Shown here piece by piece: positions 3,610-63,000 of a stretch of 64,000 nt of DNA. The translations under genes and the position numbers were made by a program. This DNA comes from Aldrovandia affinis (Eukaryota; Chordata; Actinopteri; Notacanthiformes; Halosauridae). A model generated the notes under the pieces. It did no database searches. It was not told the DNA's origin and saw only the letters and a list, made by a program, of their open reading frames with translations. The stretch is from positions 550,501 to 614,500 of the forward strand of contig JAINUG010000215.1 of NCBI GenBank assembly GCA_029706075.1, given 5' to 3'. Each line of letters begins with the position of its first letter. Position 1 is the first letter of the stretch.

Positions 3610-3934
3610 TACCGTTTTTTACAATCACTTTGGCGCTAATCTCCCAAGTTTGTGCTCAATTTTCAAAACCTTAGACACAACAGTCAAAACGTTCAGCACT
3701 TGTAACACAGCCTGTCCTATGTTCAAAAACTTGCATTGTGCATTCATATCTTTGAAGAAATCTTCATTCATATCAACTTCAGAATCATTGGTTCAAATAG
3801 CTCATGTATCATGAAATACTGTAGGAACATTAGTTTAGATCACCCACACACAAGATACAGATAGCTTCACTGTTTAGTTGTTTTTACAATCCTTAAATAT
3901 TGCAGTAAAAAATACATGATTTGATACTTGAGAA

Positions 3935-5150
3935 GAATTCCTCAATTGGGTTGAGGAAAGGGGAGTATGGGGGCAAGTACAGGGTTGTAAACTGCGGATG
4001 GGCCTGAAACCATCTCTGCACCATTAGGTGGAACCTAACATTGTCCAATACTATCACATAAGTCACTCCATCAGCTTGACAGATCTGCTGTAGCCCATCA
4101 AGGAAATTCACAAGAAGAGCTGCATTATAGGATCCCATATGAGGTCTGCGTCCCACCACACCATCCTCCGATATTGCAGCAGGTATGGTGATGTTGCTCC
4201 CATGTTGTCCAGGTACCTGGATGGTTGCCTGCTGGCTAATGAAGTTCCGACCTCCGCCTTGTTTTCGCCAGGTTGAAGCCTGCCTTGTCCACAAAGAGGA
4301 ATTTGTGGTGGTTCTCTGAAGCATCAAGCTCCATCACCCTCTAAAAATAAATTGAAAGAAAATTACCCTACAGGATATTGTAGATCAAACTTGAATCTTT
4401 CACAACAGGAATCTTGAAACTGAACATACCTGAACATACTCAGTCTGCAGTTGCTTCACCCTATCTGCATTTCTTTCCAAAGGTACCAAGTATATCTGTT
4501 TTAAAGACACCTGGTGCCTTTTCATAATGCATGCAATAGTTGGCAGACTTATGGTCTCCACATTGTTGAACATGTTGCCATTGTCAATGATGTGCTGCTG
4601 AATTTCGATCAGGCGTATATCATTTCTAACCTGAACCAAATTGACCACAGCCAGCTCTTGTTGGTAAGTTAGAATTCGGCCTCTGCCTCCCCCATTTGGC
4701 CTTGTCTCAATTCTGCAGGGAAAACAAAGAACACATTCAGTCACAACACCTACTGTGTGGTATGCAGTGGCATGCAACATACAGTAGTTTAACAGTCGAG
4801 AGTAATGCACAGTGCATGCTGAAGACTTACCGGTTCTCATGGCGGAAAGTTCTGATGATTGAGGCCGCGGTTGATCTTCTGAGGTTTGGCTGAATCATTG
4901 TAGCTGCCTCAGTCATTGTCATGCCACGATTTATGACATGGTCCACAACTATTCCTCTTTTCTGTTGCTGTCACTGTCTTGGTCCGTAGCCTTGTGCTCT
5001 ACCACGTCCCCCCCACCTCTCAAACGAGGCCCGCGGCCACCTCTCTGAAGGGGTACTTGTCCTCTGCCATTCCCTTGATCACCTCCTCCTCCTCCTCCTC
5101 CTCCTCTCACTGATTGATCTCTATTCTGAGATCATCTGCCTGCTCCATGT
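3935..5150 (-). pseudogene. DDE transposase (DDE_3 type) pseudogene with two introns
   Basis: Minus-strand homology to the IS630/Tc1 transposase family. A possible start near 5149 opens a Gly/Arg-rich leader that is frameshifted. A helix-turn-helix region follows (GMTMTEAATMIQPNLRRSTA, then RIETRPNGGGRGRILTYQQE). The catalytic core comes next: FVDKAGFNL (first Asp), VIVLDNVRFH (second Asp) and LYLPPYSPFLNPIEEFF (Glu). Splice signals are visible. Intron 1 is 4830-4713 (GTAAGT...CTGCAG). Intron 2 is 4429-4341 (GTATGT...TTTTTAG). The exon-3 frame breaks near 4265, and the protein is truncated just after the catalytic Glu. Two residues seem to be missing after the second Asp compared with what I expect for the family. 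Dead copy; function assigned from family motifs. Confidence 0.8.
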
Positions 5151-10579: not shown

Positions 10580-11065
10580 CAGGGGTCGGCAACCCATAAC
10601 ACTCAAAGAGCCATTTGGACCCGGTTTCCACGGAAAAGAAAACACTGGGAGCCGCACCATTTTCTGTCGACGGGGGTAATGAATCGGTCGCAGCGAAAAA
10701 AAGCTGGGGGCTAGACCCACCAGACCAGGGGTCGGCAACCTGGGGTAGACCCACCAGACCAGGGGTGCGGCTCTTTCAGCCTTATGTTGCGGCTCCGCGT
10801 GGCTTGGGAAAATAAATAATAAGTATCCAATTGAATCGGGCGCAAAATTGGGCGCATTTTTTTTGGCGTAGCACCCCCGTTGACAGAAAATCTGAGGGGC
10901 GCAAGAATTATTTTCGCGTTGCACCCCCCCCGGTCAGCTTTTTTCGCTGCGACCGATTCATTTGCACCCCCCCGTCGACAGAAAATGGTGCGGCTCCCAG
11001 TGTTTTCTTTTCCGTGGAAACCGGGTCCAAATGGCTCTTTGAGTGTTATGGGTTGCCGACCCCTG
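10580..11065. mobile_element. Nested hAT-type foldback MITE (family 1), copy 1
   Basis: Both ends carry the hAT-style terminus CAGGGGTCGGCAACC in inverted orientation. About 127-131 bp at each end (10580-10706 and 10935-11065) are reverse complements. Between them, a second terminus CAGGGGTCGGCAACC appears at 10726, and the 34-bp flank-plus-terminus block starting TAGACCCACCAGACCAGGGG is tandemly repeated at 10712 and 10746. The outer flanks share TAGAC but not a full 8-bp duplication. There is no transposase; ORFs across the inverted repeat are artefacts. A simpler copy is at 18851-19091. Confidence 0.75.
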
Positions 11066-11579
11066 ACCTAGACGGTGGGCACCTTGTACTAACGTGTGAT
11101 AGATTTAGAAAAAGTTGAACTAGTACAGAAAGAAAGGTATTTGTAAAAACAAACAAACAGACAAACAAACAAAAACTAGCGCTTCGCGATAATTATAATG
11201 ATATCTACATGTTTATTCAACCGAGTGAGAATGATGAAGATAATGTTTCTTGCTAATTCTTTCATTCTAGCTCCTAGCTTGCTAGGTGTGAGTTGTCAAA
11301 CATTAGCAGTGAGACATGAGTAGGGTGACCAGGCGTCCCGGTTCGGCCAGGACAGTCCCGGGTTTGAGCAGCGAGTTCCGGTGTCTCGACAAAAGGCCGA
11401 AATGTCCCGGTTTCCAGTTTACACCAAGATGTAGTAATACGACACGCGATTCTACACGACTGTGATTATATTTTGGCTGTGATTACAACAACTGGTCCAA
11501 GATCATGCCTATTGCCCCGCTTATCATTTTTAACCAATGAAGAAAACCCAATAAAACAGAGCCAGTTAATTGGAGCACA
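11066..11579. other. Intergenic, with probable hAT terminus fragment at ~11323-11460
   Basis: GTAGGGTGACCAGGCGTCCC at about 11322, and the following CCCGG-rich stretch, resemble the end of a hAT-superfamily element. No matching second end was found. The rest has no recognisable feature. Confidence 0.35.
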
Positions 11580-11587
11580 ATGTAGCC
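11580..11587. repeat. Target-site duplication ATGTAGCC, left
   Basis: An 8-bp sequence immediately outside the left end of the giant inverted-repeat element, identical in direct orientation to 18831-18838. Eight bp is the hAT target-site length. Confidence 0.8.
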
Positions 11588-11789
11588 CAGGGTGTCAAAC
11601 TCATTCCATGGAGGGCCGAGTGTGTGCAGGTTTTTGTTGCAACCAACGCCCTACACCAGGTGATTTCAATTAGTTCCCCTGCTTGGTTGAAGAAGGGAGA
11701 TAATTAGTGGAATCCCCTGGTGTAGTGCGTTGGTTGCAACAAAAACCTTCATACACTCGGCCCTCCATGGAATGAGTTTGACACCCCTG
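11588..11789. mobile_element. Terminal palindromic hAT-type MITE, left end module
   Basis: A 202-bp module that is itself an inverted repeat. It starts CAGGGTGTCAAACTCATTCC (one G short of the other ends) and finishes GAATGAGTTTGACACCCCTG. The centre contains ACTAATTATCTC-like sequence. The same module forms the other end of the large element at 18629-18830. It could once have been an independent MITE. Confidence 0.8.
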
Positions 11790-12712
11790 CTCTAAGCAGA
11801 ATCTCCATCGGGATACATGGCAAGAACAATGCACCGGTATCACACACTTCTGACGAGTTTTTGAACTATATCATAGATCATATCGTGGACTTAACATTAT
11901 TATTGATCTCTCGAAAAGTTCGAAATGTCATTCATTTCTTCGTTAAAAATCAGCAAAAGTCGTATTCGTTCCTGCCAGTAGACGGAAGATGCCCAAGCTT
12001 GCTTCAGTCAATATCTGCGTTGACCCCTTGATAAAGAAGCGGACTGCCAATACTGGTTGCTAGATTACTGCATTCTTTTATGAAAATCTCACATTTTCTA
12101 CATTCTCAGTTGACTTTCATCCATACATCCCGTGTTAATTATTTTACATAGGCTACCGTATGCACCATTGACTGCCATACATTTTTAAATGTATGTCATG
12201 GTTAAAAACAACATTGGGTTATTTTTTCCGAATTTTTCAATATGGAAACGCTGTGGGTAAAATAGGTATAGGGATGATTAGTGCCAAAACGAACGCATAT
12301 GCGTTTGACAAAGCGGCTGTATTTTTACGTACCACCACCTACGTGCACCTGCATATATGCGTTTGACGATGCGACTGGTTTTGTTCCGCACAATACGCAC
12401 AGGTTCTCTTCCTCTAAGAGGAACTCGACTCCCAAAATGAAAGTGGTAACGATAAGGTGGGTCGCTGGCTTTTGAGGACTAACGAATAATGAAAGGAATA
12501 GCCACTCTTCTGCTTCTTGTACAGGCTACAGCTATAAACACAGGTACAGCTTTAACAGCTTTAAATGTACATTATTTGATGCCTTTAAAAAAATATGCTG
12601 GTAACTTCCAAATATAGAGGAAACAATTGAGTAAATGAAGGGTTCTGGCGGCTCTTATGGTGCCTTTTCTTGCATGGTTTAGGTCCATTCTGTATTAATG
12701 TAGGCTACATAT
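11790..12712. other. Unique segment of left foldback arm
   Basis: About 920 bp matched by the reverse complement of 17700-18628. It contains the palindrome ACGCATATGCGT (about 12293-12304) and a direct repeat of ATATGCGTTTGAC (about 12298 and 12355). A 64-codon ORF (12281-12475) has a near-identical 66-codon counterpart in the other arm (18142-17942 minus). That is expected from arm duplication, and the ORF has no homology that I recognise, so I do not call it a gene. Confidence 0.6.
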
Positions 12713-12768
12713 TGTAAGTCGCTCTGGATAAGAGCGTCTGCTAAATGCTTAAAATGTAAAATGTAAAT
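12713..12768 (+). mobile_element. L2-type LINE/SINE tail in left arm
   Basis: The tail stem-loop CGCTCTGGATAAGAGCG plus GTCTGCTAAATGCTTAAAAT and ATGTAAA repeats. It ends directly at the start of a second L2 fragment. The mirror copy is at 17636-17692. Confidence 0.75.
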
Positions 12769-13357
12769 GTGATGCTTCAATCACCTTGGAAGGCTCCATA
12801 GTGTCTCCGTCCCAGTCTGCCAGAGTCTTGGGGTAACCCTGGACAACCAGCTGTACTTCTCAAGCCATATTGCAGCGATCACTCGGACCTGCCGATTCTC
12901 CTCCCACAACATCCGGAGGATCCGACCGTTCCTCACCCAAGAGACCACTCAACTCCTAGTCCAGGCCCTGGTGATCTCACGTCTGGACTCATCTCACGTG
13001 GAACGACCTTCCCCAATCGGTCAGGACCGCGGAATCACTTGCGATCTTCCGCAAGAGACTCAAAACCCACCTCTTCAGACTCCACTACCACTGAACTCTG
13101 TCCATCTAGCTAAATTGTCTTCACCGCTGTTTACTTGTTCAACACTATACTCCAAAAAAATAAAAATATAAAAATATATATATTAACTTCCCGGTGTTAT
13201 AGGTATGGTACGCAGATGCCTGCAATGATGGCTATCGCTGTATTCCTGCACTGATCTCGTGGCTAACTATGATTGTTCCTACCATGTATTAATGCACATC
13301 TTGTAAGTCGCTCTGGATAAGAGCGTCTGCTAAATGCTTAAAATGTAAAATGTAGAA
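12769..13357 (+). pseudogene. Internally deleted L2 LINE ORF2 3' end and tail, left arm
   Basis: Homology to the C-terminal end of L2 reverse transcriptase: VLGVTLDNQL, TRTCRFSSHNIRRIRPFL, TQLLVQALVISRLDSS, then a jump to WNDLPQSVRTAESLAIFRKR and LKTHLFRLHYH before the stop. About a hundred residues normally found between ISRLD and WNDLP are missing, and the reading frame shifts at the join. A 3' UTR and the GGATA stem-loop tail (13303-13357) follow. The mirror-image copy in the right arm has the same deletion join, so the deletion preceded the arm duplication. Confidence 0.85.
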
Positions 13358-13403
13358 TGTAGATAGTGGTGGCAAGCATGAATGATCTGTCTTCTTATTA
13401 TTT

Positions 13404-14506
13404 TGAGTTTACAAGGTCTCGCCTTAAATTCTCCCAGAGACAAGGAAAAAGTGCAGACGGAGGTGGCTATCATGAATTATCTCTGTCTCCCAATGCCCAG
13501 GTCAGTGGTTCAAGCCCTGGCTCCACCCTTCTTATTGTCTTGAGTTTACAAGGTCTTGCCTTAAATTCTCCCAGAGACAAGCAAAAGTGCAGATGGAGGT
13601 GGCGATCATGAATTATCTCTGTCTCCTGATGCCCAGGTCAGTGGTTCAAGCCCTGGCTCTACCCTTTTTATTCTCTTGAGTTTACAAGGTCTTGCCTTAA
13701 ATTCTCCCAGAGACAAGTAAAAAGTGCAGAAGAAGGTGGCGATCATTAATTATATCTGTCTCCCAGTGCCCAGGTCAGTGGTTCAAGCCCTGGCTCTACC
13801 CTTCTTATTCTCTTGAGTTTACAAGGTCTTGCCTTAAATTCTCCCAGAGACAAGTAAAAAAGTGCAGAAGAAGGTGGCGATCATGAATTATCTCTGTTTC
13901 CCAGTGCCCAGGTCAGTGGTTCAAGCCCTGGCTCTACCCTTCTTATTCTCTTGAGTTTACAAGGTCTTGCCTTAAATTCTCCCAGAGACAAGTAAAAAGT
14001 GCAGAAGAAGGTGGCGATCATGAATTATATCTGTCTCCCAGTGCCCAGGTCAGTGGTTCAAGCCCTGGCTCTACCCTTCTTATTCTCTTGAGTTTACAAG
14101 GTCTTGCCTTGCAGAAATTCGCCCAGAGACAAGTAAAAAGTGCAGAGACGGAGGTGGCAGAAGAAGGTCATGAATTATCTCTGTTTCCCAGTGCCCAGGT
14201 CAGTGGTTCAAGCCCTGGCTCTACCCTTTTATTCTCTTGAGTTTACAAGGTCTTGCCTTAAATTCTCCCAGAGACAAGTAAAATAGTGCAGAAGAAGGTG
14301 GTGATCATGAATTATATCTGTCTCCCAGTGCCCAGGTCAGTGGTTCAAGCCCTGGCTCTACCCTTCTTATTCTCTTGAGTTTACAAGGTCTTGCCTTAAA
14401 TTCTCCCAGAGACAAGTAAAAAAGTGCAGAAGAAGGTGGCGATCATGAATTATCTCTGTCTCCCAGTGCCCAGGTCAGGGGTTCAAGCCCCACCTCTTCT
14501 GTTTCT
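13404..14506 (+). repeat. Tandem array of ~137-bp tRNA-like units, left arm (8 units)
   Basis: Units begin GAGTTTACAAGGTCTTGCCT at 13404, 13542, 13678, 13815, 13953, 14090, 14239 and 14377. The period is 136-138 bp; one unit is 149 bp with an insertion. Each unit carries GGTCAGTGGTTCAAGCCCTG, which looks like a tRNA T-arm/box B. In the last unit, the T-stem GGGGTTCAAGCCCC at about 14476-14489 pairs perfectly. Upstream, GGTGGCGATCATGAATTAT sits where box A would lie. The units resemble a tandemly amplified tRNA-derived SINE head. No coding function; the ORFs here are readthroughs. Confidence 0.75.
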
Positions 14507-14549
14507 GTTGCGTTTACGAAGTCTCTCCTTAAGTTATCGGCAGGACAAA

Positions 14550-14640
14550 GCAATGAACCAAGGAAGCTGTGGTGCAAGTGAATGATTGTTGCCTTCTGAC
14601 GCTGAGGTTTGGGGTTCAAGCCCAGCTCTTGATCCTTTCT
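14550..14640 (+). repeat. tRNA-like unit 2, left arm
   Basis: GCTGTGGTGCAAGTGAATGA serves as a box-A region and GGGGTTCAAGCCCAGCTC (about 14611-14628) as the T-arm/box B. It aligns with the 137-bp unit (shared GTGG.G...TGAAT and TGAGGT..GGGGTTCAAGCCC), so it is a diverged relative. The mirror copy lies at about 15500-15590 on the minus strand. Confidence 0.6.
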
Positions 14641-14702
14641 CTTTGCACAGGTTTGATCCATTGTGCGGTTTAAATATACCGAAAAACAGAGGATGAGTGT
14701 GA

Positions 14703-14800
14703 GGGTGTGTCTGGCGCACTTGGTAGAGCTGCTTGGGAGATTGGCCCTGGAGATCCACGGTTCGATTCCATGCGTTGGCCCGAGCAACAGGAGGTCCCCA
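14703..14800 (+). repeat. tRNA-like unit 3, left arm
   Basis: TGGCGCACTTGGTAGAGCTG (about 14711-14730) is a strong box A, and GGTTCGATTCC (14759-14769) is a perfect box B, about 30 bp apart as in a tRNA. The anticodon arm is not convincing, so I call it a tRNA-derived repeat and not a tRNA gene. Both boxes are kept in the right-arm copy (15345-15420, minus). Confidence 0.65.
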
Positions 14801-14892
14801 GGGTGGAGGAGGGGGAATGCTGTGCCCCCCGCGATTTCAGAGTTCTAAAACTGGGGTTTTCGATACGAGGACTTGGGCCGATGGATACGAGG

Positions 14893-14995
14893 ACTTGGGC
14901 CGATGGATAGATGGATAGATGGATAGATGGATAGATGGATAGATGGATAGATGGATAGATGGATGGGATAGATGGATAGATGGATAGATGGATAA
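14893..14995. repeat. (GATGGATA)n microsatellite, left arm
   Basis: Twelve or so GATGGATA octamers near the hinge. The complementary (TATCCATC)n run is at 15157-15260. Confidence 0.9.
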
Positions 14996-15060
14996 TCAAA
15001 ACAGTTGAGTTGAGTTGAGTTGAGTTGTTTTGATGGATTGCTCAATCATCTTTTAGATAA

Positions 15061-15101
15061 CAGAACAAGATTACACACAGTCATTTTATAATCTTGTTCT
15101 G
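15061..15101. repeat. Hinge of the giant palindrome
   Basis: The perfect 13-bp stem CAGAACAAGATTA (15061-15073) and its complement (15089-15101) are separated by 15 bp. Flanking GTTGAGTTGAGTT and AACTCAACTCAAC runs continue the symmetry outwards, with small differences. Confidence 0.85.
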
Positions 15102-15156
15102 TAAAAAGATGATTGATTGAGGAACAAAACAACTCAACTCAACTGTTTTGATTATC

Positions 15157-15260
15157 CATCTATCCATCTATCCATCTATCACATCTATCCATCTATCCAT
15201 CTATCCATCGCCCATCTATCCTCGTATCCATCTATCCATCTATCCATCTATCCATCTATC
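15157..15260. repeat. (TATCCATC)n microsatellite, right arm
   Basis: Complement of the left-arm octamer run, but interrupted differently (CACATC, CGCCCATC, CTCGTATCC). It has therefore changed independently since the arms formed. Confidence 0.85.
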
Positions 15261-15344
15261 CCCCATCTTTTAGAACTCCTGAAATCGCGGGTCCTCGACA
15301 CAGCATTCCCCACTCCCCCTCCACCCTGGGGACCTCCTGTTGCT

Positions 15345-15596
15345 CGGGGCCAACGCATGGAATCGAACCGTGGATCTCCAGGGGCCAATCTCCCGAAGCA
15401 GCTCTACCAAGTGCGCCAGACACACCCTCACACTCATCCTCTGTTTTTCGGTATATTTAAACCGCACAATGGATCAAACCTGTGCAAAGAGAAAGGATCA
15501 AGAGCTGGGCTTGAACCCCAAACCTCAGCGTCAGAAGGCAGCAATCATTCACTTGCACCACAGCTTCCTTGGTTCATTGCTTTGTCCTGCCGATAA
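15345..15596 (-). repeat. tRNA-like units 3 and 2, right arm
   Basis: Minus-strand mirror of 14550-14800. GGAATCGAACCG (plus strand, about 15359-15370) is the box B of unit 3, and GGGCTTGAACCCC (about 15506-15518) the T-arm of unit 2. Orientation again points towards the hinge. Confidence 0.6.
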
Positions 15597-15644
15597 CTTA
15601 AGGAGAGACTTCGTAAACGCAACAGAAACAGAAGAGCTGGGGCT

Positions 15645-17000
15645 TGAACCCCTGACCTGGGCACTGGGAGACAGAGATAATTCATGATCGCCACCTCCGT
15701 CTGCACTTTTTACTTGTCTCTGGGCAAATTTAAGGCAAGACCTTGTAAACTCAAGAGAATAAGAAGGGTAGAGCCAGGGCTTGAACCACTGACCTGGGCA
15801 TTGGGAGACAGAGATAATTCATGATCGCCACCTCCGTCTGCACTTTTTACTTGTCTCTGGGCGAATTTAAGGCAAGACCTTGTAAACTCAAGAGAATAAG
15901 AAGGGTAGAGCCAGGGCTTGAACCACTGACCTGGGCACTGGGAGACAGATATAATTCATGATCGCCACCTTCTTCTGCACTTTTTTACTTGTCTCTGGGA
16001 GAATTTAAGGCAAGACCTTGTAAACTCAAGAGAATAAGAAGGGTAGAGCCAGGGCTTGAACCACTGACCTGGGCACTGGGAGACAGATATAATTCATGAT
16101 CGCCACCTTCTTCTGCACTATTTTACTTGTCTCTGGGAGAATTTAAGGCAAGACCTTGTAAACTCAAGAGAATAAAAAGGGTAGAGCCAGGGCTTGAACC
16201 ACTGACCTGGGCACTGGGAGACAGAGATAATTCATGATCGCCACCTCCGTCTGCACTTTTTACTTGTCTCTGGGCGAATTTAAGGCAAGACCTTGTAAAC
16301 TCAAGAGAATAAGAAGGGTAGAGCCAGGGCTTGAACCACTGACCTGGGCACTGGGAGACAGATATAATTCATGATCGCCACCTTCTTCTGCACTTTTTTA
16401 CTTGTCTCTGGGAGAATTTAAGGCAAGACCTTGTAAACTCAAGAGAATAAGAAGGGTAGAGCCAGGGCTTGAACCACTGACCTGGGCACTGGGAGACAGA
16501 TATAATTCATGATCGCCACCTTCTTCTGCACTTTTTTTTTTACTTGTCTCTGGGAGAATTTAAGGCAAGACCTTGTAAACTCAAGAGAATAAGAAGGGTA
16601 GAGCCAGGGCTTGAACCACTGACCTGGGCACTGGGAGACAGATATAATTCATGATCGCCACCTTCTTCTGCACTTTTTTACTTGTCTCTGGGAGAATTTA
16701 AGGCAAGACCTTGTAAACTCAAGAGAATAAAAAGGGTAGAGCCAGGGCTTGAACCACTGACCTGGGCATCAGGAGACAGAGATAATTCATGATCGCCACC
16801 TCCATCTGCACTTTTTGCTTGTCTCTGGGAGAATTTAAGGCAAGACCTTGTAAACTCAAGACAATAAGAAGGGTGGAGCCAGGGCTTGAACCACTGACCT
16901 GGGCATTGGGAGACAGAGATAATTCATGATAGCCACCTCCGTCTGCACTTTTTCCTTGTCTCTGGGAGAATTTAAGGCGAGACCTTGTAAACTCAAAATA
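15645..17000 (-). repeat. Tandem array of ~137-bp tRNA-like units, right arm (10 units)
   Basis: Minus-strand units whose starts (GAGTTTACAAGG complement) fall at 15753, 15890, 16028, 16165, 16303, 16440, 16583, 16720, 16858 and 16995. Period is 137-138 bp; one is 143 with a longer T run. Each holds GGGCTTGAACCACTGACCTG, the complement of the T-arm/box B. There are two more units than in the left arm. Two unit types alternate (CACCTCCGTCTGCAC and CACCTTCTTCTGCAC), indicating multi-unit expansions within the arm. Confidence 0.75.
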
Positions 17001-17040
17001 ATAAGAAGACAGATCATTCATGCTTGCCACCACTATCTAC

Positions 17041-17635
17041 ATTCTACATTTTACATTTTAAGCATTTAGCAGACGCTCTTATCCAGAGCGACTTACAAGA
17101 TGTGCATTAATACATGGTAGGAACAATCATAGTTAGCCACGAGATCAGTGCAGGAATACAGCGATAGCCATCATTGCAGGCATCTGCGTACCATACCTAT
17201 AACACCGGGAAGTTAATATATATATTTTTTATATTTTTTATTTTTTTGGAGTATAGTGTTGAACAAGTAAACAGCGGTGAAGACAATTTAGCTAGATGGA
17301 CAGAGTTCAGTGGTAGTGGAGTCTGAAGAGGTGGGTTTTGAGTCTCTTGCGGAAGATCGCAAGTGATTCCGCGGTCCTGACCGATTGGGGAAGGTCGTTC
17401 CCACGTGAGATGAGTCCAGACGTGAGATCACCAGGGCCTGGACTAGGAGTTGAGTGGTCTCTTGGGTGAGGAACGGCCGGATCCTCCGGATGTTGTGGAG
17501 GGAGAATCGGCAGGTCCGAGTGATCGCTGCAATATGGCTTGAGAAGTAGCTGGTTGTCCAGGGTTACCCCAAGACTCCTGGCAGACTGGGACGGAGACAC
17601 TATGGAGCCTTCCAAGGTGATTGAAGCATCACATT
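17041..17635 (-). pseudogene. Internally deleted L2 LINE ORF2 3' end and tail, right arm
   Basis: Mirror copy of 12769-13357. Minus-strand reading gives SPSQSARSLGVTLDNQLL, then the deletion join, then GNDLPQSVRTAESLAIFRKR, LKTHLFRLHYH and a stop. The 102-codon ORF is open only because indels have shifted the frame. The tail stem-loop is at about 17078-17094. The same deletion join as the left arm shows common descent. Confidence 0.85.
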
Positions 17636-17692
17636 TACATTTTACATTTTAAGCATTTAGCAGACGCTCTTATCCAGAGCGACTTACAATAT
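17636..17692 (-). mobile_element. L2-type tail, right arm
   Basis: Mirror of 12713-12768, with ATTTAGCAGACGCTCTTATC and the stem-loop complement. Confidence 0.75.
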
Positions 17693-18628
17693 GTAGCCTA
17701 CATTAATACAGAATGGACCTAAACCATGCAAGAAAAGGCACCATAAGAGCCGCCAGAACCCTTCATTTACTCAATTGTTTCCTCTATATTTGGAAGTTAC
17801 CAGCATATTTTTATCGTAAAGGCATCAACATAATGTACATTTGCGTCAAGCGTATAAATAGTTAAAGCTGTACCTGTGTTTATAGCTGTAGCCTGTACAA
17901 GAAGCAGAAGAGTGGCTATTCCTTTCATTATTCGTTAGTCCTCAAAAGCCAGCGACCCACCTTATCGTTACCACTTTCATTTTGGGAGTCGAGTTCCTCT
18001 TAGAGGAAGAGAACCTGTGCGTATTGTACGGAACAAAACCAGTCGCATCGTCAAACGCATATATGCAGGTGCACGTAGGTGGTGGTACGTAAAAATACAG
18101 CCGCTTTGTCAAACGATATGCGTTCGTTTTGGCACTAATCATCCCCTATACCTATTTTACCCACAGCGTTTCCATATTGAAAAATTCGGAAAAAATAACC
18201 CAATGTTGTTTTTAACCATGACATACATTTAAAAATGTATGGCAGTCAATGGTGCATACGGTAGCCTATGTAAAATAATTAACACGGGATGTATGGATGA
18301 AAGTCAACTGAGAATGTAGAAAATGTGAGATTTTCATAAAAGAATGCAGTAATCTAGCAACCAGTATTGGCAGTCCGCTTCTTTATCAAGGGGTCAACGC
18401 AGATATTGACTGAAGCAAGCTTGGGCATCTTCCGTCTACTGGCAGGAACGAATACGACTTTTGCTGATTTTTAACGAAGAAATGAATGACATTTCGAACT
18501 TTTTCGAGAGATCAATAATAATGTTAAGTCCACGATATGATCTATGATATAGTTCAAAAACTCGTCAGAAGTGTGTGATACCGGTGCATTGTTCTTGCCA
18601 TGTATCCCGATGGAGATTCTGCTTAGAG
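17693..18628. other. Unique segment of right foldback arm
   Basis: Reverse complement of 11790-12712 with scattered substitutions and small indels. It has an extra TATTTATACGCTTGACG-like stretch near 17840, and the ACGCATATGCGT palindrome of the left arm is broken here by one missing base. No gene recognised. Confidence 0.6.
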
Positions 18629-18830
18629 CAGGGGTGTCAAACTCATTCCATGGAGGGCCGAGTGTATGAAGGTTTTTGTTGCAACCAACGCACTACACCA
18701 GGGGATTCCACTAATTATCTCTCTTCTTCAACCAAGCAGGGGAACTAATTGAAATCACCTGGTGTAGGGCGTTGGTTGCAACAAAACCTGCACACACTCG
18801 GCCCTCCATGGAATGAGTTTGACACCCCTG
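18629..18830. mobile_element. Terminal palindromic hAT-type MITE, right end module
   Basis: A 202-bp module with intact termini CAGGGGTGTCAAACTCATTC and its complement GAATGAGTTTGACACCCCTG. It mirrors 11588-11789 and forms the right end of the large element. Confidence 0.8.
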
Positions 18831-18838
18831 ATGTAGCC
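18831..18838. repeat. Target-site duplication ATGTAGCC, right
   Basis: Identical in direct orientation to 11580-11587. The inner junctions of the two MITE modules have no such match (CTCTAAGC versus ATGTAGCC), which is why I assign the duplication to the whole 7.2-kb unit. Confidence 0.8.
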
Positions 18839-18850
18839 TATAACCTAACC

Positions 18851-19091
18851 CAGGGGTCGGCAACCTGCGGCTCCGGAGCCGCATGCGGCTCTTTCAGCCT
18901 TATGTTGCGGCTCCGCCTGGCTTGGGAAAATAAATAATAAGTATTAAATTGAATCGGACGCAAAATTGGGCGCATTTTTTTTGGCGTAGTACGCCCCCCG
19001 TCGACAGAAAATGGTGCGGCTCCCAGTGTTTTCTTTTCCGTGGAAACCGGGTCCAAATGGCTCTTTGAGTGTTATGGGTTGCCGACCCCTG
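18851..19091. mobile_element. hAT-type MITE (family 1), copy 2
   Basis: 241 bp with termini CAGGGGTCGGCAACC and GGTTGCCGACCCCTG. It shares GCGGCTCTTTCAGCCTTATG, GGCGCATTTTTTTTGGCGTA and TTTTCTTTTCCGTGGAAACC with the element at 10580-11065, but is not extended into a long foldback. It starts 12 bp beyond the right target duplication of the giant palindrome. I see no clean 8-bp flanking duplication. Confidence 0.75.
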
Positions 19092-22000
19092 CACCAGACA
19101 AAGAATGGGTTTATCCATTGTACACAGCTATAATACTTTTGTGTCTTGTTTTCTGGGGGATGGGAGGAGGTGCAGTGCATTTATTATATAATGAAGTTGA
19201 CTATGCTGCATTATAAAGCTGCATGATGTATTCTGAAGTATTGTATTTATAGTGCTATAAATTGGCCACTTGTACAGTTCCTTTCACCATGAGGGAAATA
19301 TGTATGTGCTGTCAACCCTTCACAAAATCCTTCTAAACTCTTGGTAAAAATCTGCACAAAGCTGTGAACTGCACTGAAAGAACAGCTCTACGTACTTGCT
19401 AGCTTGTGAGTAACAGAATGCAGATTGTGTTTACAACAGTGCTGTTAGCTAAACGCTATCTTTGCAGTCTGCAATCTGTCACTGTATTGAATGAAGAAGA
19501 CAGATCTGAAATCCTGCCGAGGACTTGTTTCCTTGCTACTGTTATTTTTGTAGTACCGTGGTGCTTAGTGGTGTTAATTCATCGTCATCTTTTAAAATGT
19601 GCCAATTTGACAAAAAAAACTGTCTGGCCACAGAGGCCAAATTAAATTATTTAAAAAAAGCTCATACATTTTCTTTATAGAGTCTTTATATACTCTATAA
19701 CCATGGTTACCTCACACAAACGCTTCACCTTTTCATTATTCATACCTTCTGTCATGCCAAATCCTTACTGAAAGAAAAGTTGGAGACACAGACTGTATGA
19801 AAGAAGAGAGAACAATGCAAAGCTGAGGGTGATTAGCTGGGAATTCAGAGAGTGGTTGAGATGAATAAATATGTAGGGCAATTAGTATTGAGGCGTTATA
19901 GCCACTATGTGGCATTCAATCTTATCTCCCAGTTATTACACACTAATGCACTTCTGTCAGCACTCTACGTTTGTATTGTTTACAACGTTTCAAAAGCAAG
20001 GGCATTTTTGAGACATTGTAAACATTTTGTGTTAAAACTATTTGTTTGAAATTAATTCATGACAATAGGCTTCTTTTTTTGTTGTTGCTTTGAACCTTGG
20101 CTCATAGCTTTGGTGTAACTGGGTGAGCCCCTGGCTAAAACAACCTCGGGAAGCGTTTTCAGTTTTCTGAATTTATTTCGATTTCCCTGGGCCTTTCATC
20201 CTTTGTTTTCACAGGAAATACCATCGTGACAGTTCTGCATGTGATTAAAATGACTAATGTGCCCTGTGATGACGATGTATATGTTTAAATTCAGTAAACC
20301 TTTGGGTTAATAGGGATTGCGATGTTCGATCTCTGCATAGGCTTTGTGAGATGAACAAGATTATTAGAGTCTTCTCAGACCTTGTAGATCATGTATCTAG
20401 GAGATATTTTGAAAATGTAAGCCTGTCAAATCTAGTCCAAAAAGTCCTTTAGTACCGCAGGAGACCCATTCCATGTTTTACAGGATGGTTAATCTGGAGA
20501 CTCTTCCACATTTTACAGGATGGTTAATCTGGAGACCCATGTCTTGTTATATTTCCAGCAGCGTGTGTCACAATCCACGGATGCTTCTGAAGCCTGCTGG
20601 ACAGGCAAGTGTATTACAGGGGGAATGAGTCACTGAAAGCCATGTTGTGTAAGACACCAGGCCCAATGTCCATTATTTCGATGAAATTACTGCTGAGGAT
20701 CACATCAAAAGCGACAAAAGTAATGAGGGACAACAATGGTGTTGTCCAGCATAGTGGGCAGCTGGACACATTTGGTTTTGTGTCAAAGCTCGGGTACAAT
20801 ATTTGGGGGACAGCTCCTTAATTTGTAACAGAGGGAAAATAAACAGGGCTGTATAGTGCCACAGATTTTGTTACATATGCAACCCCAAATTCTTCAGTGC
20901 CAACAGGAAGAAAGTGCATGCACATTAAATTACATAAATAATTGCTGTTGTGCAATGTTACTCTAAAAGTCTATGTGTACATGTACTCTCATTCTAACCT
21001 CAAGGGCAACGTGAAAATCATTCCTCATAAGGTCATCAGTTAAGCATAAAAATGATATGGTTTCACTGATTGATGCTTATATTTAAATTGGAGGAATTCT
21101 GTGTTTTTGACTCTTCCTCTCCATTTCCAAGGAGCTTGGAGTTCAGTGATTTCTTCCTTCTAGACCATTTCAGAAATCTAAAATTCTCATCTACATGTTC
21201 AAGCAGGCAAAGTACAAATGTTAGCCTGAAGAGTTGGTCTGTATTGTTTGAAAATGGTACAATTTCGTTGCATTACATTGCAAGCACGTGGGCCCAGGTA
21301 GATCATTGGTGAGCACTGGCGTTGTACAAATATTAAAAAGACAGTTATGGAATTAACACGCTACATTTTGCTTCATTTCACTATCGCAAACTTTTTTCTA
21401 AGTTCCAAATGGGTGGGTCCGGGAGTCAACCCGTCAGATTTATCCTACTGGCAGGCTGCACTGCTGCACAAACGACTGCAAGTAGGCCAAAGCAAAATGT
21501 CACATCTTTAAACCTCTAGAATCAACAGTGTCTAATGAGGTGCAGAACATTACATCTGCTTGAAAAGCGGAAGGCACCGGGACTTATATTCAGTGCTGTG
21601 TGGCTGTTAGACTATTATTTCGCTTACATTAACAGAGCCAGGGACTGTAATAAATAACTGGAAGCTTATAGTGTCCAAACCCCCCCTCCCCCAGCGCTTT
21701 CATCATTGGCTACCACTGAGGGACATCTCTTCCTCGGTCTTCTCCTGCCCCAAGAGAAAGACGGAAGCCGGTTTTATCGTGTTTTCATCTTTTTTTCCCG
21801 CTCGCTACGTACACGCGAATACTACAGCGATCCACGGTGTTAGCTTCAAGGTCATCTCAAATCTAGTTTAAATTTCATTGTAATGTATTTATTCATTTAT
21901 GAATCTTACCTCCGAAAGTCAATGTTGCGATTTGCAGGGGAAAAGAATTGCCTCTCGGATTACAGGGAACACACAGTATGTCTGGCTCCCCAGACAGCAT

Positions 22001-24170: not shown

Positions 24171-24630
24171 CAGGGGTGGCCAACCCGCGGCTCCCGAGCC
24201 GCATGCGGCTCTTTGCCTGGTTTCATGCGGCTCTTACGTTCATATCGAAGTTTGTGTTTTTTTTTTTTTATGTGTGTGTTCGCTTCGCTTGAGTTCAATA
24301 CGGTATTTTCGTCAAACGCGCACCGCTCGCAAAATTTCAGAAGACGAAAAAAAACACAGTTAGGGCAGCGGTCCCCAACCTTTTTTGCACCACGGACTGG
24401 TTTCATGCACCGGGTTTAAAATTAGGAGGGGCGCAATTTTTTTTATTCCTCTTACCACCCCGAACTGGTGTCCGGTTTTATTTTGCGTGTATCACCCCCC
24501 CCCCCTCCCCGGTCCGCGAAATAAATGAACAGGTTTTATTTCGCGTGTAGCAACCCCCCGGTGATGTGGCTCTTTGCGGTAACACAGTAAAGAATTTGGC
24601 TCTTAGTCTCTGACTGGTTGGCCACCCCTG
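24171..24630. mobile_element. hAT-type MITE with perfect 8-bp target duplication
   Basis: 460 bp. Termini are CAGGGGTGGCCAACC and GGTTGGCCACCCCTG. Flanking direct repeats TACTAGTG (24163-24170 and 24631-24638) match perfectly, confirming hAT-type insertion. An internal segment beginning CAGCGGTCCCCAACCTTTTT at 24366 resembles the terminus of a different hAT family, suggesting a nested insertion or chimeric MITE. No transposase. Confidence 0.9.
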
Positions 24631-57029: not shown

Positions 57030-57583
57030 CATCTCCCATACCTCTGAGCAGTGCATTTACCCCCTCCAGTACCCTAACCCTAACCCTCTCCTGTACCTCT
57101 GAGCAGTGCATTTACCCCCTCCAGTACCCTAACCCTAACCCTCTCCCATACCTGTGAGCAGTGCGTTTACCTCCTCCAGTACCCTAACCCTAACCCTCTC
57201 CCATACCTCTGAGCAGTGCGTTTACCCCCTCCAGTACCCTAACCCTAACCCTCTCCCATACCTCTGAGCAGTCCCGTTTACCCCCCTCCAGTACCCTAAC
57301 CCTAACCCTCTCCCATACCTGTGAGCAGTGCGTTTACCTCCTCCAGTACCCTAACCCTAACCCTCTCCCGTATCTGTGAGCAGTGCGTTTACCCCCTCCA
57401 GTACCCTAACCCTAACCCTCTCCCGTACCTCTGAGCAGTGCGTTTACCCCCTCCAGTACCCTAACCCTAACCCTCTCCCATACCTCTGAGCAGTGCGTTT
57501 ACCTCCTCCAATACCCTAACCCTAACCCTCTCCCATACCTCTGAGCAGTGCGTTTACCTCCTCCAATACCCTAACCCTAACCA
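57030..57583. repeat. 55-bp minisatellite with telomere-like core, 10 copies
   Basis: Unit of about 55 bp: CTCTGAGCAGTGCGTTTACC, then CCCTCCAGT, then ACCCTAACCCTAACCCTCTC. The telomere-like block starts at 57071, 57126, 57181, 57236, 57293, 57348, 57403, 57458, 57513 and 57568. Steps are 55 bp except two of 55-57. Each unit has about two and a half CCCTAA hexamers. Units vary slightly (CTGTGAGC, CTCCTCCAAT). Confidence 0.95.
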
Positions 57584-61497: not shown

Positions 61498-61620
61498 TGT
61501 ATGCCATTTAGCAGACGCTTATCCAAAGCAACTTTTTCAGTATATGTGGTCCCAGTGGGAAATGAACCCACAACCTAAGCGTTGCCAATGCCATGCTGTA
61601 CCTACTGAGCCACACAGAAC
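61498..61620 (-). mobile_element. tRNA-derived SINE with L2 tail
   Basis: Minus strand: TGTGGCTCAGTAGGTACAGC (box A), GGGTTCATTTCCC (box B/T-arm, about 61558-61570), GGGACCACATATACTGAAAA and the tail TTGGATAAGCGTCTGCTAAA. Compact family of about 125 bp. Confidence 0.8.
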
Positions 61621-62503
61621 CACACACACACAGAACCACTGGCTCACTGAATACGATGCATACTTTACGTTTGTACTTTTACATTTGACCCTGGCCAGCT
61701 TTCAGAGGAAGTAATGGCAAAAGTATTTTTCTCTACTTGGAGGTTGATTCCTGGGATGATAGTGTCAGCGCATTAACTTAAGAGGGAATGAGGCATTGCC
61801 TCCAGCTGAGAGAAAAAGCTGGTTAGGAATGGCAATGAAATCATGGTAAACACATGACACTTTTCGGGGAAATCAGATTGCCATTCGGCACTGTCCGGCT
61901 CACACCGCTTTCTGCTACATATGACACTTCTGCCCGGTTCCCCCCAAACGGCATCTTTGCCTTTGACCTTCCAAGTCAATAATATTCAATATTACTCATA
62001 TTCCCAAGGTTGTTGATTTAAGATGAGGTAAGAGCATCTGCGATGGTGCCATTGATGGTAAATATGGAACTCCATAAATAAGCTTGGATGGATATATCTG
62101 AAACAGGTTATTTCCCTTGGCCATTAAATGCAGTCCTAGGAAAAAAAGTTTGATCTTTGACCTCGAGAGATCTATCTCTCCATATATCTTCTTTCAAACA
62201 TTCACATTCTTCAAAACAAATTGAGTGCTGGGAGTAGCCATTTCTCTGCCCTGCCGCCGCTGGTCTGCATGTTTCCGGCGATTCCTTGCGGCTAGTAATG
62301 ATGCGGGGGTGCGGTGAACGAAGACAGAATCTGTGATTTATCTCTATGACTTCCCTGTGTCTGGGGTACTGCAGAGCACGCACACACACACACGTGCACA
62401 CACGTGCACATGCATGCACATGCACGCACACGGCATGCGTCGCAGTATGTAGCGCTCTGCAGGCACCACGAACGCTGTGTTTGCCTCACTAAGAGGCACG
62501 GTG
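61621..62503. other. No gene recognised
   Basis: Short CA/CATG run at about 62380-62430. No coding homology. Confidence 0.4.
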
Positions 62504-62707
62504 TATGCATTCATGTAATACTGTGTGTATACCACGGTCTATGCATTCATGTAATACTGTGTGTATACCACGGTCTATGCATTCATGTAATACTGTGTGT
62601 ATACCATGGTCTATGCATTCATGTAATACTGTGTGTATACCACGGTCTATGCATTCATGTAATACTGTGTGTATACCACGGTCTATGCATTCATGTAATA
62701 CTGTATG
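62504..62707. repeat. 36-bp minisatellite, 6 copies
   Basis: Unit TATGCATTCATGTAATACTG plus TGTGTATACCACGGTC. Starts are at 62504, 62540, 62576, 62612, 62648 and 62684. Because 36 is a multiple of three, it stays open as a 12-residue repeat on both strands (MHSCNTVCIPRS on plus). A seventh partial unit lies at 63001-63031. No sign that either ORF is a gene. Confidence 0.95.
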
Positions 62708-63000
62708 TGCCCCTTGCCTGGAAACGGGCACGCTTTGGCAGGAGTTTTGTCCCCTCTGCCATAACATCATTAAACAAAATACCTCGGTAAAAATCATGTA
62801 TAGATGAGTATGACTGTGTATGTTGGTAAAAATGTGGATGTACCCATGTGGGCGCATATTTAATGTATGTATGTAATAGTGGTGTGTATATTTGTATTTA
62901 TGTAATTTATGTAATTTATGTGAGGCTTTCTCTGTACAGACTGTGGCAACAAATTTCCTGAAAAGGACAATAAACAATCTATCTATCTATCTATCTATCT
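62708..63000 (+). mobile_element. Probable LINE 3' fragment with (TATC)n tail
   Basis: Ends with AATTTCCTGAAAAGGACAAT, AAACA and then (ATCT)n (62973-63000), a tail form common for fish LINE 3' ends. It lies between copies of the 36-bp minisatellite unit, as if inserted there. No coding part is left. Confidence 0.45.

Follow-up and report, generated by a model that had tools for sequence, protein, structure and literature searches.

A 64,000-nt window of the Aldrovandia affinis contig JAINUG010000215.1 (positions 550,501-614,500; G000:C1280:550501-614500 in the species' own 1.22-Gb genome assembly) contains a 7,243-bp palindrome that, in our judgement, is very probably a foldback transposon from a young, non-autonomous family mobilised by hAT transposition. 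Each arm begins with a complete 202-bp miniature inverted-repeat transposable element (MITE), here called A, followed by sequence resembling the upstream region of a major histocompatibility complex (MHC) class I-like gene.

Structure of the palindrome

The original prediction, made from the window alone, had described reverse-complementary arms at 11588-15073 and 15089-18830, direct 8-bp duplications outside both ends, and hAT-type termini, and all of this was confirmed. The arms are separated by a 15-bp hinge spacer (15074-15088), and BLAST gave 97.95% identity for the outer portion (11590-14490 against 15914-18827) and 91.6% mirror identity for the central portion (13391-16734). The arm alignment contained 57 substitutions and 32 gaps, concentrated in a tandem array and toward the hinge; 17 of the gaps were a single base long, and one corresponded to two whole 137-bp units (274 bp). 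Direct copies of ATGTAGCC, the duplication apparently made at an ancestral locus, lie at 11580-11587 and 18831-18838 and adjoin the palindrome termini to the base; a direct 8-bp match at the same spacing was found at 3 of 56,741 window positions. Both termini carry CAGGG(G)TGTCAAACTC, consistent with the short terminal inverted repeats (TIRs) of the hAT superfamily, and we take these CAGGG-type ends to be hAT-like. The mirror symmetry ends precisely with the last base of the hAT terminus, and the flanks outside it are unmirrored. ATGTAGCC also occurs once more within each arm, in the tail of a long interspersed nuclear element (LINE; 12703 on the minus strand and 17691 on the plus strand), and these internal copies have no bearing on the termini.

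From the tip, each arm reads MITE A, CTCTAAGC, a 0.9-kb segment (S1), LINE pieces with UnaL2 tails, a 137-bp tandem array, a segment S4, and the hinge. The left arm, on the plus strand, comprises A (11588-11789; an imperfect palindrome whose outer half serves as the terminus), CTCTAAGC (11790-11797), S1 (11790-12700), 3' pieces of a UnaL2-type LINE with two tails (12701-13360; RF00436), 7.9 array units (13391-14490), and S4 (14491-14900), which is the arm of an older dispersed foldback repeat, H. On the minus strand, the right arm holds S4 (15261-15632), 10 array units (15633-17008), LINE pieces (17039-17700), S1 (17701-18628), the inner flank CTCTAAGC (18621-18628), and an inverted A (18629-18830) with the same outer end as the left tip. 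Long inverted arms with tandem repeats therefore fill most of the element, as in foldback transposons. No Pfam family was found at E 0.1 in the 10 open reading frames (ORFs) scanned out of 23 of at least 70 aa overlapping the palindrome, in support of the prediction that it has no transposase of its own, and a protein search with one arm ORF gave no match.

Two copies of one MITE end

Both tip MITEs have CTCTAAGC as their inner flank. Between the two copies, the outer halves differed by no substitution and two 1-base gaps and the inner halves by no substitution, while the outer and inner halves of A differed from each other by 9 substitutions in about 90 positions. Because the outer halves match and the outer and inner halves differ, a single type of MITE end, present twice, closes the palindrome on both sides. 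Neither the complete 202-bp MITE at each arm tip nor the hAT composite surrounding the palindrome (10726-19091, described below) had been noticed in the original prediction.

A genome search with the MITE end yielded 1485 first-look candidates, of which 40 were scored, and the 20 stretches fetched around listed matches comprised ten with a solo MITE A and ten with S1 arms. All ten solo copies had perfect 8/8 TA-centred duplications. Every A-bounded and solo A site was TA-centred, compared with 6.4% of window 8-mers, and these sites match the nnnTAnnn target consensus reported for Buster-type hATs (PMC3517528). Judged by these targets, the transposase acting in trans was probably of Buster type. 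The MITE pattern had no matches in viral contigs and none in prokaryote contigs.

Individual tips have also been lost. At C768 (L022) the left MITE is gone, and where GTTTAGAC, A, and CTCTAAGC would be expected in succession the sequence reads GTTTAGA-G-TCTAAGC, the exchanged base at the join resembling known hAT footprints. Similar small losses were seen at one or both tips in L013, L032, and L034/L035. Single A copies excise from the tips alone and leave footprints.

Foldback copies elsewhere in the genome

Searching the genome with S1 gave 806 candidates, 40 of which were scored, with further loci fetched at their ends only, and 16 two-armed loci, including the window, were examined, a minimum for the genome. 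Both A outer tips were retained in 7 of these 16, and 6 of the 7 had perfect (8/8) direct duplications, representing five distinct target sites: the window (ATGTAGCC, 7,243 bp), C91 (GTGTAGAG, 6,011 bp), C1843:13k (CTCTAAAC, 3,178 bp), C824:102k (ACATAGAC, 8,367 bp, with the right MITE split by an insert and the left MITE cut short inside), C1843:361k (CTCTAGAG, 6,054 bp), and C824:1039k (ATGTAGCC, 16,253 bp, with additional copies of the core in its interior). ATGTAGCC in the window and at C824:1039k stems from a single insertion, so that the sites number five, and the 16-kb copy on C824 may have grown after insertion. In 5 of the 6 measured copies the mobilised length was 3-8 kb. Several copies with target duplications of their own, as in a foldback family, strongly support the suggestion that the whole palindrome moves as one unit. 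In the seventh two-tip locus (L011), ATGTAGCC and the adjoining segment E are mirrored on both arms, no direct duplication was present at the level of A, and a second element, hAT-B, forms the bounds further out. The other nine loci had lost at least one A tip or carried it truncated. In both L014 and L015, the A copies at the two tips are oriented with the outer half outward.

Among 18 S1 arms, 14 differed mutually by 0-0.75%. The palindrome spread recently, because the right arm of the window and the left arms of L011 and L015 show no S1 substitution among them; the left window arm is up to 0.9% from these, mostly through one private cluster of differences. Divergence was 0.7-2.7% for both L014 arms and the right arm of L021, and 1.5-2.8% for L058, a locus discussed in the next section. 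Eleven of the 16 foldback loci lie on four contigs (four on C824, three on C80, two on C1843, and two on C1789), a clustering, uncorrected for the length of these contigs, that may reflect local hopping.

Origin of the arm sequence

In some MITE-free relatives of S1, the upstream sequence and S1 are joined by one copy of CTCTAAGC (L042) or of CTCTAGGC (L039-L041, L043, and L046), and because these relatives hold only one such 8-mer, CTCTAAGC was very probably the target at which A had once inserted in the donor gene. S1 contains ATG AAA GGA ATA GCC ... AAC ACA G followed by GT (12489-12543, plus strand, in the left arm, with a second presumed leader exon in the right arm), which can be interpreted as encoding the leader peptide MKGIATLLLLVQATAINT, with a splice donor next to it; we infer the exon from this reading. 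A paralogue at C1823:6.445-6.449 Mb has exons predicted to join in phase, which matched Pfam MHC_I (PF00129) at 48.3 bits when joined and at 31.2 bits for the second exon alone, and C1-set at 57.9 bits when joined. The presumed first MHC exon alone had no Pfam match, even at E 10, and no match among solved structures. S1 thus matches the upstream region and presumed leader exon of MHC class I-like paralogues, continuing to the start of the presumed intron, as in a Pack-type element that has captured part of a gene.

The whole arm was found once, in order and without A, at L058 (C1823:6450.2-6455.4 kb, minus strand), within an MHC class I-like cluster to which this C1823 paralogue also belongs. 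S1 plus the LINE is 96.8% identical there and is followed by an insertion, the array, S4, and the hinge, around which lies an inverted repeat of about 300 bp (3935-4229/4317-4617, 92.4%). The array-S4-hinge core is the older dispersed foldback H, for which there were 241 candidates; four mirrored pairs lie at places outside the scored S1 list, and L059 and L060 are symmetrical at about 93%. H seems to have seeded the palindrome. As represented at L058 (3817-4617), L059, and L060, it consists of 137-bp units, S4, and the hinge, is about 2 kb long and roughly 10% diverged, and contains stretches that are tRNA-like by eye only.

The outer hAT-B composite and locus Q

The palindrome is flanked by two directly oriented copies of hAT-B, a second non-autonomous hAT with 1304 first-look candidates in the genome. 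Copy 1 (10726-11065, plus strand, ends CAGGGGTCGGCAACC) is damaged near its 5' end, and copy 2 (18851-19091, plus strand) is 241 bp long. Together they delimit a composite of 8,366 bp (10726-19091) with direct CACCAGAC at 10718-10725 and 19092-19099; in the whole window, CACCAGAC starts only at 10718, 10752 (within the damaged left end), and 19092. Between copy 1 and the palindrome lie its inner flank ACCTAGAC (11066-11073), which occurs without hAT-B at C824 (L009), and segment E (11074-11579, plus strand), ancestral-locus sequence that is part of a dispersed repeat. On the other side, segment T (TATAACCTAACC, 18839-18850, plus strand) is the right flank of the ancestral locus, and its last 8 bp form the inner flank of copy 2.

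In four composites both outer ends of hAT-B fell within the sequence fetched, and all four had 8/8 duplications (window CACCAGAC, C2034 GGCTAGGC, C1789 CCATAGGT, and C80:2626k GTCTATCC). Solo hAT-B copies resemble an ordinary transposon family in this respect: 9 of the 10 fetched had 8/8 duplications, and the remaining one lacked a 3' end within the fetched sequence. Outer and inner flanks differ at both levels, as in a macrotransposon: ATGTAGCC and the other outer duplications against inner CTCTAAGC for A, and outer CACCAGAC against inner ACCTAGAC/ACCTAACC for hAT-B.

The junction palindrome-ATGTAGCC-TATAACCTAACC-hAT-B is common to the window, C2034 (where the left A tip is truncated), and C80:1302k. 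At C824:1039-1055 kb (locus Q), both ATGTAGCC junctions are present without any hAT-B; ACCTAGAC precedes E there with a different upstream sequence, and TATAACCTAACC continues into other sequence. E and the right flank of locus Q follow one another within a single dispersed repeat (L052: E at 66-239 and right flank at 292-398; also L053 and L054). Since the junctions lack hAT-B and the flanks are consecutive, C824 lies close to the site of the native insertion, and the copy in the window descends from it, having been carried along by hAT-B. The prediction that the palindrome had inserted here as a ATGTAGCC unit must accordingly be corrected: the ATGTAGCC insertion took place at C824, in a context that looks native, and the palindrome arrived in the window as cargo of the composite, whose own duplication is CACCAGAC. 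An orthologous empty site should therefore show one CACCAGAC and not one ATGTAGCC.

Because both arms of L011 include E and parts of hAT-B, its palindrome was extended outward again; an apparent 16-bp T extension at that locus was rejected as a chance BLAST extension. At C80:1302120-1316000 (L031-L033), two tandem palindromes share one hAT-B, an arrangement as expected from unequal crossing-over between hAT-B copies. A circular or tandem donor for the outer level, considered on account of the similar inner flanks ACCTAGAC and ACCTAACC, was dropped, as L009 and L038 show both sites unoccupied in native context. Left of the composite, positions 10580-10717 hold an extra inverted hAT-B 3' piece with duplicated flank bits (GGGGTAGAC and CACCAGAC), and near it the hAT-B 5' hairpin is replaced by a flank copy, which looks like a template-switch scar.

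Proposed history

We propose that the first step would have been the insertion of a 202-bp MITE A into CTCTAAGC, in the upstream region of an MHC class I-like gene. A break near the intronic H would then have allowed a strand to fold back on the existing inverted repeat and to be copied outward through the LINE, the presumed leader exon, the promoter, and the MITE. Judging from the anatomy, the product would have been MITE-arm-hinge-arm'-MITE', closed on either side by one and the same type of MITE end. The inverted repeat already present at the hinge of L058 indicates that the palindrome probably grew outward in this way from such a repeat, and hairpin-primed inverted duplications have been shown in yeast in the work described in PMC7467729. 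Cleavage at both outer tips by a hAT transposase supplied in trans would next have released the palindrome, which, as its copies show, was inserted whole at several sites with 8-bp duplications, one of them locus Q on C824 (ATGTAGCC). Two hAT-B copies would later have come to flank the palindrome of that lineage, and the DNA between them has spread with 8-bp duplications, including to the window (CACCAGAC), more probably by en bloc transposition. Single A copies have also been excised from the tips, leaving footprints. The palindrome persists as a selfish passenger, and no host function is needed to explain it.

Alternative explanations

A sequencing-hairpin or assembly artefact is extremely improbable. 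The original prediction had dismissed it and was right to do so, although its argument from indels and base changes is weak, because 17 of the 32 arm gaps are single bases and possibly consensus errors. A further feature in favour of an artefact is the cluster of substitutions and indels at 12557-12590, private to the left window arm and just 3' of the presumed splice donor; the 16 other sequences covering it (the right window arm and L058 included) agree save for single substitutions and small indels, and the cluster is either a micro-rearrangement or an assembly error. What decides the matter is that the mirror ends exactly at the hAT terminus, that the flanks are unmirrored, and that other loci have different flanks and duplications. 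It is also most unlikely that the palindrome belongs to an ordinary long-TIR hAT family, descended from an autonomous element by deletion of its transposase, and is not a MITE pair around captured host DNA. Long tandem-bearing TIRs do occur, as described for gadMor-hAT-1784 of Atlantic cod (PMC12368964), but the arm is present once, in order and without the MITE, in an MHC class I-like gene cluster, the terminal 202 bp are a complete MITE that is mobile on its own, and the 10 scanned ORFs of 23 contained no Pfam family. hAT excision leaves double-strand breaks, and the palindrome could have replaced the inside of a single resident MITE A at each site by ectopic gap repair, the 8-bp duplication being that of the old MITE. 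The abundance of A (1485 first-look candidates) would supply repair templates, and cores seem to exchange with dispersed H copies. A resident MITE would, however, leave two different halves outside, whereas the outer halves in the window are the same half of A (0 against 9 substitutions), the outer half of A also faces outward at both ends of L014 and L015, and six copies at five sites have 8/8 duplications; we therefore give gap repair very little weight.

For the outer level, en bloc transposition of the hAT-B composite is our first choice, and recombination into a resident hAT-B is a serious rival, if the less likely of the two. A solo hAT-B with CACCAGAC would already have been resident, and hAT-B, E, the palindrome, T, and hAT-B would have been copied in by recombination between hAT-B copies. 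The two copies are in direct orientation, so that the composite resembles a single hAT-B at its outer ends, the tandem palindrome-hAT-B-palindrome on C80 suggests recombining hAT-B copies, and CACCAGAC, the only compared duplication without a TA centre, fits such an event. Four composites with four different 8/8 duplications are, on the other hand, simply explained by transposition, and excision and reinsertion of such composites are documented for maize Ac in the account of PMC9910405.

Several observations weigh against the history that we prefer, in which fold-back copying was followed by transposition at two levels. CACCAGAC is the sole non-TA-centred site among the duplications compared, C2533 (L036/L037), one of the nine loci with a lost or truncated A tip, yielded no clear duplication, and the left hAT-B is lost in L010. 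The S1 of L058 is 1.5-2.8% from those of the palindromes, and no array lies right of its hinge in the 5.2 kb fetched; for these two reasons L058 is to be regarded as related to the donor, and the donor proper is another sequence. Two types of hinge core were distinguished, symmetrical in the window, L011, and L013 (like L059/L060) and asymmetrical in L010, L012, L016, and L058, and it is possible that cores were exchanged with dispersed H copies or that there was more than one origin. A MITE-occupied gene was not found among 87 pattern matches, which had 1-3 mismatches and were never exact; the one recognised at a listed S1 locus (C1843:13305) was the outer tip of L015. Genes with the hAT-dimerisation domain (PF05699) are present in the genome (4288 candidates), and no transposase was tied to A, with 150 of the 4288 scored and A-type ends not searched around them. 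None of the 40 candidates scored, out of 151, was an uninterrupted ancestral ATGTAGCC site, and the empty CACCAGAC site of the window gave 0 matches with up to 3 mismatches; the searches covered one assembly, in which failure to find these sites or the occupied gene says little.

Comparison with known systems

Foldback transposons with tandem-repeat arms, palindromic teleost hAT derivatives, and hAT macrotransposons are already known; new here are hAT transposition with two identical ends, the origin as reconstructed, and nesting at two levels. Tetris/DAIBAM of Drosophila virilis, as presented in PMC4079207, is likewise a non-autonomous foldback with arm tandem repeats that vary in number and arm ends common with a MITE, with a unit of about 220 bp (137 bp here) and duplications of 8-10 bp. 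Its arms are at most 1.7 kb, its superfamily is unproven (Mutator in the authors' suggestion), and its MITE is interpreted as having arisen by deletion, whereas in A. affinis the MITE would have come first, the ends and duplications have hAT character, and the arm has a counterpart present in single copy. The Atlantic cod elements gadMor-hAT-1784/8043 (PMC12368964) are also palindromic, hAT-derived, and without an ORF, with TIRs of about 600 bp made of 167-169-bp tandem units; in that description they have no captured host gene part, MITE-bounded composite, or 8-bp duplication series, and their importance lies at inversion breakpoints.

In the maize Ac macrotransposons of PMC9910405, two hAT copies also mobilise the DNA between them, and excision leaves modified 8-bp duplications. 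Those composites end in Ac 5' and 3' termini, in contrast to the 202-bp MITEs, two identical ends, and inverted duplication found here, and Hermes is described in PMC10368747 with dissimilar left and right ends. For AgaP2-P12MITE, of the Anopheles P element, the authors of PMC1562414 propose en bloc macrotransposition of two neighbouring copies; it belongs to another superfamily, the proposal comes from one chimeric MITE with ends from two subfamilies, and no palindrome of captured DNA figures in that description. Mar, a Buster-type hAT MITE of Drosophila, shares the 8-bp duplications and the nnnTAnnn consensus, is a solo MITE as described (PMC3517528), and is likened to A by target consensus alone. 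Literature searches, which covered open-licence papers only, listed no report of an identical-end hAT foldback with captured MHC class I-like DNA, a donor-like locus, and a second composite.

Other features of the window

Another hAT-like element, with TIR CAGGGGTGGCCAACC and a perfect 8-bp duplication TACTAGTG, occupies 24171-24630, and a second hAT-like end lies at 24366 with the flank AGTTAGGG. A DDE_3 transposase remnant (Pfam PF13358, 56.7 bits) was identified at 3896-4327 on the minus strand. Two minisatellites were present, at 57032-57582 (10 units of 55 bp, ending in CCCTAACCCTAACCC-like motifs) and 62497-62708 (5.9 units of 36 bp, 97% matches). ARAGORN found no tRNA in the window, and one weak Rfam tRNA match lies at 61555-61612.

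Implications

One genome holds most of the series: gene sites without the MITE, a donor relative that has the seed inverted repeat, mobile palindromes each with duplications of their own, a near-native locus, and a second nesting. This suggests that 202-bp MITEs alone, with two identical ends, can mobilise several kb in a vertebrate. Copies of what appears to be an immune-gene promoter region, captured within the arms, have spread through the genome. As a broader and rather improbable proposal, any MITE near an inverted repeat could become a self-contained foldback transposon with identical ends by one fold-back copying event and could grow outward by copying its flanks; the present one, with two convergent MHC class I-like promoters and presumed leader exons, would then, at every site where it inserts, give rise to hairpin RNA directed against transcripts of MHC class I-like genes.

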